Below, piece after piece: positions 28,533 through 38,617 of a DNA stretch of 64,000 nucleotides. The position numbers and the translations under genes were made by a program. The notes below the pieces were generated by a model. That model searched no databases, had not been told where the DNA came from, and was given only the letters and a program-made list of their open reading frames with translations. The stretch is from contig NZ_FNUS01000001.1 in assembly GCF_900108025.1 (NCBI RefSeq), positions 62,001-126,000 of the forward strand, written 5' to 3'. How positions within the stretch are numbered: the stretch's first letter is position 1; every line of letters starts with the position of its first letter. The DNA is from Halpernia humi (GTDB taxonomy: Bacteria; Bacteroidota; Bacteroidia; Flavobacteriales; Weeksellaceae).

Positions 28533-28553
28533 TTTGTCATTCTGAAAGAATCT
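28533..28553 (+). repeat. Diverged copy of the GTCATTCCGTAGGAATCT repeat
   Basis: Matches 18 of 21 positions of the inverted repeat that flanks the GIY-YIG gene at 38145-38165. Here it lies alone between the acetyltransferase gene and ung. Confidence 0.6.
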
Positions 28554-38115: not shown

Positions 38116-38144
38116 GACTATTTGAATTAATGATTTAAATAGAT

Positions 38145-38170
38145 TTTGTCATTCCGTAGGAATCTAAGCA
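38145..38170 (+). repeat. Left inverted repeat of the GIY-YIG unit
   Basis: 26 bp that read as the exact reverse complement of 38535-38560. The core ATTCCGTAGGAAT is itself a dyad (ATTCC-n3-GGAAT). It lies 22 nt past the GIY-YIG stop codon. Confidence 0.9.
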
Positions 38171-38192
38171 GCCCAAAATAAAGTGTAAAAAA

Positions 38193-38534
38193 TTATTTCA
38201 ATTCAAAAAGATGATTTAAAAAATCTAAATTTGGATTTTGTTTTCTAATTAATTCCAATTTCTTGTCTCTCGAAAAACTCTTTATTTCTTTTTCTCTTAA
38301 AATAGCGTTTTGGATCCATCCAAACTTTTCATAGTGTATAAGGAAGTGAGCGTTGTATCTACTCGTAAAACTTTTCTCATTTATATTTTTTGAATGCTGT
38401 TGCAATCTAATATGTAAATTATTTGTTACGCCTGTGTAAAGAACTGTTTTTCTCTGATTGGTTAAAATGTAAACGTAAAAAGTATAAATTCCTTCAGTAG
38501 TTTCATTCATAATTTTTGACTGTGTTAAATTCAT
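38193..38534 (-). CDS. Single-domain GIY-YIG nuclease
   Basis: 113 residues with an intact GIY-YIG core: FYVYILTN with the first tyrosines, LYTGVTNNLHIRLQQH holding the second tyrosine and the catalytic arginine, and the metal-binding glutamate in ILREKEIKSFSRDKK. Such stand-alone domains (YhbQ/UPF0213-like) nick or cut DNA, but their roles are unclear. The gene fills the space between perfect 26-bp inverted repeats and its first possible ATG (38534) abuts the right repeat; a second ATG at 38510 is an alternative start. Confidence 0.88.
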   Translation of the reverse strand: MNLTQSKIMNETTEGIYTFYVYILTNQRKTVLYTGVTNNLHIRLQQHSKNINEKSFTSRYNAHFLIHYEKFGWIQNAILREKEIKSFSRDKKLELIRKQNPNLDFLNHLFELK

Positions 38535-38560
38535 TGCTTAGATTCCTACGGAATGACAAA
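38535..38560 (-). repeat. Right inverted repeat of the GIY-YIG unit
   Basis: Exact reverse complement of 38145-38170, directly adjoining the first ATG of the nuclease gene. A further diverged copy in the same orientation lies at 38597-38617. Confidence 0.9.
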
Positions 38561-38596
38561 AATTCTGTAAATATTATTGCGCGTTATTCTTTTTTC

Positions 38597-38617
38597 ATTT
38601 TCCCACGGAATGACAAA
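38597..38617 (-). repeat. Diverged third copy of the GIY-YIG-associated repeat
   Basis: attttcccacggaatgacaaa keeps the ACGGAATGACAAA half exactly and differs in the other half. Confidence 0.6.

Follow-up and report, generated by a model that had tools for sequence, protein, structure and literature searches.

Repeats at a GIY-YIG locus of Halpernia humi

We analysed a window of 64,000 nucleotides (the whole stretch of DNA studied) from Halpernia humi, in which a small GIY-YIG nuclease gene is enclosed by short palindromic repeats. The features are as follows.

28534..28552, + strand: solo unit without a gene, a compensated stem variant GTCATTCT-GAA-AGAATC (stem TTCT/AGAA)
38144..38170, + strand: left flanking repeat unit TTTTGTCATTCCGTAGGAATCTAAGCA, with the outer tag TTTTGTC, the hairpin GTC-ATTCC-GTA-GGAAT-C at 38148-38164 and the tail TAAGCA towards the gene
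38193..38534, - strand: GIY-YIG nuclease gene, 113 aa, single domain (PF01541, E=2.7e-12)
38535..38561, - strand: right flanking repeat unit, an exact inverted copy of TTTTGTCATTCCGTAGGAATCTAAGCA with the tag outermost and the hairpin at 38541-38557
38598..38616, - strand: third repeat unit TTGTCATTCCGTGGGAAAA, partly decayed, with the hairpin core retained and the tail gone

The locus is an inverted repeat pair with the nuclease gene as its loop. A preliminary description of this DNA had reported exact inverted repeats around an intact, single-domain GIY-YIG gene, and our analysis confirmed it: the right copy is the perfect reverse complement of the left, and the PF01541 ORF between them is intact. 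The two diverged copies listed there as lacking the gene are also real, one with a compensated stem and one partly decayed. The right repeat, described as touching the start codon, does adjoin the first ATG of the ORF, but close homologues of the protein begin at residue 9 (~38510), so the true start is probably at that residue, about 24 bp inside the ORF. With up to three mismatches allowed, the window contains four matches to the repeat versus 0.72 expected, and the largest count in 100 shuffles was three.

The repeat is dispersed beyond this locus. The pattern TTGTCATTCCNNNGGAATC has 30 exact matches in the 3.12-Mb genome and 34 matches with at most one mismatch, versus none for the reversed control, and the window repeat with at most three mismatches has 78 matches versus 6 for the control. 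Units of this type have the tag TTTGTC, with TGTC unpaired at one end, a 5-bp stem, a 3-nt loop and the tail TNANC. Most exact copies form inverted pairs with the tags outermost and a loop of 10-25 nt between them, and 28 of the 30 lie outside ORFs of at least 100 aa. The window gene is the sole GIY-YIG gene of this genome flanked in this way, and tagged hairpins are absent from the flanks of the others. Adjacent GIY-YIG matches at C2:571833-572402 (L032/L035) belong to another subfamily and have flanks without tagged hairpins.

The nuclease protein

Alignment of 23 sequences from many phyla revealed the invariant residues Y22, Y33, R43, H47, E81 and N100 (numbering in the window protein). The dN/dS ratio was 0.03-0.20 in 13 of 14 close pairs, and the exception (0.64) was a pair with few changes. 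Judged by these ratios, the nuclease is under purifying selection.

The closest structure to the fold predicted for the window protein (mean pLDDT 84) is UPF0213 1zg2 (Foldseek E=6e-4), to which the sequence match is weak (E=0.012). Next nearest are the branched-DNA nucleases Slx1-Slx4 (Foldseek E=0.009-0.1). This places the protein in the Slx1-like, structure-selective branch of the GIY-YIG fold. No C-terminal RING domain was found in its 113 residues, which form one domain, and no NCBIfam family matched it. A 2006 survey placed minimal prokaryotic GIY-YIG proteins in the Slx1 lineage (PMC1564403), and a term search of that paper gave no hit for palindromes or inverted repeats.

Repeat types in the host's family

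We inspected 70 GIY-YIG loci from 148 genomes of the host's family. Inward-pointing hairpins with the same stem were present on both sides of 38 of the 70, versus none of 30 rpsT control loci, and the nearest hairpin had its tail towards the gene on 78 of 101 sides. Five repeat types occur near these genes: type I, the window type, with its 3-nt loop; type II (GTCATTCTGAAC...GAAGAATC); type III (GTCATTGCGAG...GAAGCAATC); type IV (GTCANNNNGAGCYTGTCGANNNN); and type V (GTCANNNNGAA..TTTCNNNN). Types II-V have longer or two-part stems.

The repeat type changes four times on the nuclease protein tree, the minimum for five types, versus a mean of 36.9 changes after shuffling; the tree is built on only 102 columns and its deep nodes are weakly supported, near-copies exaggerate the difference from the shuffles, and types were assigned by a rule composed after inspecting the loci. 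Every nuclease clade has its own repeat type, which supports the pairing of nuclease and palindrome proposed in the preliminary description.

Two further arrangements were observed. In one genome (G107:C25:85263-86486), type-I units stand in a regular series round a GIY-YIG gene, about 172 bp apart on its right. One genus carries a second repeated unit of ~100 bp (TTGGGCAGCTATTTCCGCCTTCCG...CTCAAGTCGGGCTGC) just upstream of a type-I pair and in the same orientation. Its loci, chosen by BLAST similarity, are L250, L254, L257, L259, L261, L262, L268 and L276 in genome G131 and L287, L294, L303 and L321 in genome G134. Together, the unit and the pair form a mosaic that recalls the neisserial NIMEs.

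Spread across phyla

From 84,980 species genomes, 80 loci were picked by protein similarity alone. They include Cyanobacteria, Chloroflexi, Planctomycetes, Omnitrophota, Clostridia, Nitrospirae, Elusimicrobia, Proteobacteria and candidate phyla. An inverted-repeat score of at least 34 was reached at 32 of 78 cross-phylum loci and at none of 60 pairs of control segments 1 kb away. Hairpins were present within 300 bp on both sides of 51 of 78 loci versus 1 of 136 shifted controls; about one third of the genes have no hairpin on one or both sides. In both the family and the cross-phylum samples, inverted copies hence enclose GIY-YIG genes much more commonly than control genes, a favourable outcome of a check proposed in the preliminary description. 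The tail of the nearest hairpin pointed towards the gene on 96 of 122 sides, a polarity expected if the nuclease gene is the loop of an element. Chance adjacency or an artefact could appeal to the short length of the repeat and to nothing else; we give this reading practically no weight, as the controls were at or near zero in every test.

The same layout was found at plasmid-collection loci of N. gonorrhoeae, Aeromonas, Azospirillum and Sphingobium, and the Neisseria, Aeromonas, Azospirillum and Sphingobium loci carry a CGTC tag. On the Azospirillum lipoferum plasmid AZO_p3 (L144), the GIY-YIG gene with its flanking CGTC-type pairs lies between sufB and sufC. The gonococcal units fit dRS3, which is defined as ATTCCC-N8-GGGAAT (PMC9778887, PMC3898611) and occurs in ~200 copies in the gonococcus and up to ~700 in the meningococcus (PMC9778887). 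We counted 111 repeat copies in the gonococcal record and 106 in Omnitrophus magneticus, with none for the reversed control; the GIY-YIG genes of both are flanked by such repeats. A search of phages gave a single weak match.

We also searched the surroundings of the genes, without bias, for the perfect hairpins of greatest length. Their commonest 5' neighbour was TGTC, on 17 of 145 sides versus ~0.6 expected if all tetranucleotides are equal, and many of the hairpins matched are unrelated palindromes. The scope of the preliminary description was therefore too small, as the pattern occurs in many phyla and resembles the published CGTC-tagged super-family of REPs.

Conservation of the hairpin fold

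Type IV copies were gathered with a pattern that left the stem free and demanded no pairing. The 44 copies have 13 different 5' stems, yet 173 of 176 pairs are kept, versus 116 on average and at most 138 when the partners were shuffled. The simplest inference from these sequences is that a folded strand with a fixed tag and loop would be recognised, because a protein that reads only the duplex sequence should not permit so variable a stem. Unit ends are conserved as far as the TTT before GTC, which suggests that this TTT is the outer edge of the element.

Conserved pairing, together with the intergenic position of the hairpins next to coding sequences, would also suit an element acting at the RNA level, with the hairpins serving as terminators or as signals for mRNA processing or autoregulation and the nuclease acting on RNA. 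We regard this as very improbable. The fold family acts on DNA, the inverted hairpins on the two sides of the gene mean that one copy would be read as its complement, and no Rfam family matched at its gathering score. The sub-threshold Rfam matches were to animal RNA models only and were taken as chance. One of them, between a neisserial repeat (L137:2002-2117) and MIR8670 (E=8.6e-5, 41.5 bits, gathering score 150), is probably a chance likeness between palindromes.

Gene presence and repeat copy number

The median number of type-I copies was 23 in genomes with an intact type-I gene (n=16) versus 0 in the others (n=132; Mann-Whitney p=7e-7). Copy number and the type-I gene were also associated in a within-genus permutation (p=0.002). 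At least three copies were found in 7 of 7 genera with the gene or a pseudogene versus 3 of 26 without (p=3e-5). However, 29 of the 132 genomes without a type-I gene have at least five copies, one of them 74. That maximum comes from a genus rich in copies in which only 2 of 20 sampled species have the gene. The preliminary description had proposed that the nuclease may recognise and spread the palindrome; the tests of association favour this, and the abundance of repeats in gene-less species of one genus partly matches what that description named as a refutation. By analogy with REPs in genomes that lack RAYTs, the copies in gene-less genomes are most readily taken as orphans that outlived a lost gene.

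Turnover of repeats and element edges

At the site of the G131 GIY-YIG gene, one sister species has the repeat pair only, one has no repeat and one has another insert. Of the 40 repeat loci in G131, about 17 recur at the matching position in G134; at the syntenic place of several others the repeat is missing. Occupied sites, element-free sites and sites with a single fused palindrome coexist on Sphingobium plasmids. L145 and L146 are two such plasmid loci with one fused palindrome where relatives have the GIY-YIG element (CCGTCACCCCGGGTCAAGCCCGGGGTGACGG in L146). A fused palindrome is expected either from arm-arm recombination or from a solo unit that preceded insertion. At another site (site C in Sphingobium TomTYG74, L352), a GGGCTGAGCTTGTCGAAGCC-type pair stands where other strains have a CCCGGG-type pair.

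Neither the Sphingobium plasmids nor the sister species offered a clean empty site from which a junction could be defined, because their flanks are too diverged for the junctions to be placed. Target-site duplication gave no signal in ~55 repeat pairs (110 rows, each pair counted in both orientations), for which there was no clean empty site to compare; the best of 48 combinations of offset and length reached z=2.9, which is not significant for so many. The bare pair at one locus of a sister species indicates that the flanking could in part reflect preferred insertion into existing repeats.

The main rival to mobilisation holds that the nuclease acts on extruded REP hairpins or cruciforms in the manner of Slx1, cutting or resolving them, and so limits or recombines the repeats rather than spreading them, and that the gene sits between repeats because their recombination moves or protects it. 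Branched-DNA nucleases among the nearest folds, fused palindromes that resemble arm-arm recombination and the persistence of repeats without the gene would all fit. Such a role gives no reason for the gene to lie between copies of its own substrate in many phyla or for the tails to point inwards, and genomes with the gene have more copies of the repeat, not fewer. We therefore consider it unlikely, though it deserves more weight than the other alternatives.

Y1 transposases as a possible driver

Genes for Y1 transposases (PF01797) are present in 9 of 10 genomes checked. Many Y1 loci have their own inverted repeats, such as TAGCTCCGTAGGAGCGACCTGTTAATAG (L353-L372). RAYT genes often do, so two REP systems coexist in these genomes. 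None of 20 Y1 loci had type-I units within 500 bp, and one genome with a GIY-YIG gene and 47 repeat copies had no Y1 match. On these two grounds, a RAYT was ruled out as the driver of the type-I repeat. The preliminary description had called the nuclease unrelated in fold to RAYTs while likening the layout to theirs, and both statements hold: the window protein matches PF01541 only, PF01797 genes lie elsewhere and not near the repeat, the gene sits between inverted, dispersed hairpins, and the clade of the enzyme matches the type of the repeat.

The gene could instead be a passenger, trapped between repeats that another enzyme (such as a RAYT) or recombination has spread. The frequency of RAYTs in the genomes checked and the sister species with only a repeat pair at the gene's site point this way. 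Yet the RAYTs have different repeats, one genome with gene and repeats has no Y1 match, the nuclease clade predicts the repeat type, and the nuclease is under purifying selection. Di Nocera et al. 2013 likewise saw no case of CGTC repeats on either side of a tyrosine transposase gene (PMC3733652). A passenger gene is, in our judgement, rather improbable.

Proposed mechanism and significance

We consider it likely that the GIY-YIG gene encodes the cognate enzyme of the (T/C)GTC-tagged hairpin family and, in a RAYT-like way, spreads the pairs in trans. This small nuclease probably supplies the enzyme that had long been missing for a widespread class of palindromic repeats in bacteria, because it is flanked by dispersed hairpins and each of its branches has its own repeat type. 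We infer that it binds, cleaves and mobilises them. Each repeat is a short hairpin whose 5' tag is unpaired, most repeats stand as inverted pairs with their tags on the outside, and at the nuclease locus the gene takes the place of the loop. In the proposed mechanism, hairpins would extrude from single-stranded or supercoiled DNA, and the nuclease would most likely bind the extruded single-stranded or cruciform hairpin via its tag, loop and stem shape, and cut at or near the tag or tail. Host enzymes would copy or rejoin the released or nicked pair elsewhere. The outcome would be excision of pairs, or their copying in trans into new intergenic positions, a model already put forward for RAYTs and GTAG-REPs. 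GIY-YIG enzymes are hydrolytic cutters without the covalent intermediate of HUH transposases. Rejoining would therefore differ from that by HUH enzymes and would need host enzymes.

More tentatively, Slx1-like GIY-YIG nucleases may constitute a second, independent class of hairpin mobile system, hydrolytic and structure-selective. Such nucleases would have created the CGTC/TGTC-tagged REPs found in most bacterial phyla, dRS3/NIME and the rickettsial palindromes among them, and would be spreading them to this day. This broader reading is possible, and we hold it less firmly than the cognate role.

CGTC-tagged REPs are among the commonest short bacterial repeats and are involved in genome rearrangement. 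The study that defined them left their mobiliser open (PMC3733652), and the GIY-YIG nuclease is a specific candidate. As it is matched clade by clade to the repeat, it lends itself to a direct bench test. If the proposal is true, a very widespread small family annotated only as 'GIY-YIG nuclease' gains a function, and the partnership of REP and enzyme arose more than once, from unrelated folds. Searches of 5.4 million open papers, which did not extend to bioRxiv or subscription journals, turned up none that connects GIY-YIG with these repeats, and priority is uncertain.

Comparison with known systems

MITEs with DDE transposases are also short inverted-repeat elements with a gene-bearing version, but the locus has no DDE transposase and no target-site duplication was detected in the ~55 pairs. 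GIY-YIG homing endonucleases share the catalytic domain and a tie to mobile DNA. They differ in that the window gene is intergenic, with no intron or intein and no extra DNA-binding domain, and the target here appears to be a hairpin. The Slx1/UPF0213 lineage shares the fold, the minimal single domain and the catalytic residues (PMC1564403). The eukaryotic form of Slx1 has a C-terminal RING domain and an Slx4 partner, whereas the window protein has no RING, and bracketing by repeats is a feature of the present genes, to which no function had been assigned before.

The REP/RAYT systems (TnpA-REP, REPINs, GTAG-tagged REPs) are alike in their tagged hairpins, inverted pairs with short loops, low-copy nuclease gene between inverted units, dispersed and orphan copies, and matching of enzyme and repeat. 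The RAYT/REPtron enzyme is an HUH Y1 transposase (PF01797), whereas the window enzyme is a GIY-YIG protein with PF01541 only, and the tag of RAYT REPs is GTAG, whereas here it is (T/C)GTC, or TTTGTC in the window type. The system would operate in the manner of RAYT/REP, yet its different enzyme and tag place it outside that group.

In the scheme of Di Nocera et al. 2013, REPs fall into two super-families, tagged with GTAG or with CGTC; the latter was reported to have no dedicated transposase and includes neisserial dRS3/NIME and rickettsial RPE (PMC3733652). GIY-YIG is not mentioned in that paper. Its CGTC-REP carriers include Neisseria, S. meliloti and A. lipoferum, and GIY-YIG loci of all three were examined in the present analysis. 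CGTC-tagged REPs are defined by a stem of 8-9 bp, a loop of 4-5 nt and a CCA tail (PMC3733652), and the window type differs with its 5-bp stem, 3-nt loop and TNANC tail. In both, an unpaired CGTC/TGTC/CCTC tag precedes a stem that begins with A-T pairs, the units form inverted dimers in intergenic DNA, and no Y1 locus is flanked by them (for type-I units, those 20 loci). Several other GIY-YIG loci come close to the CGTC-REP definition of stem, loop and tail.
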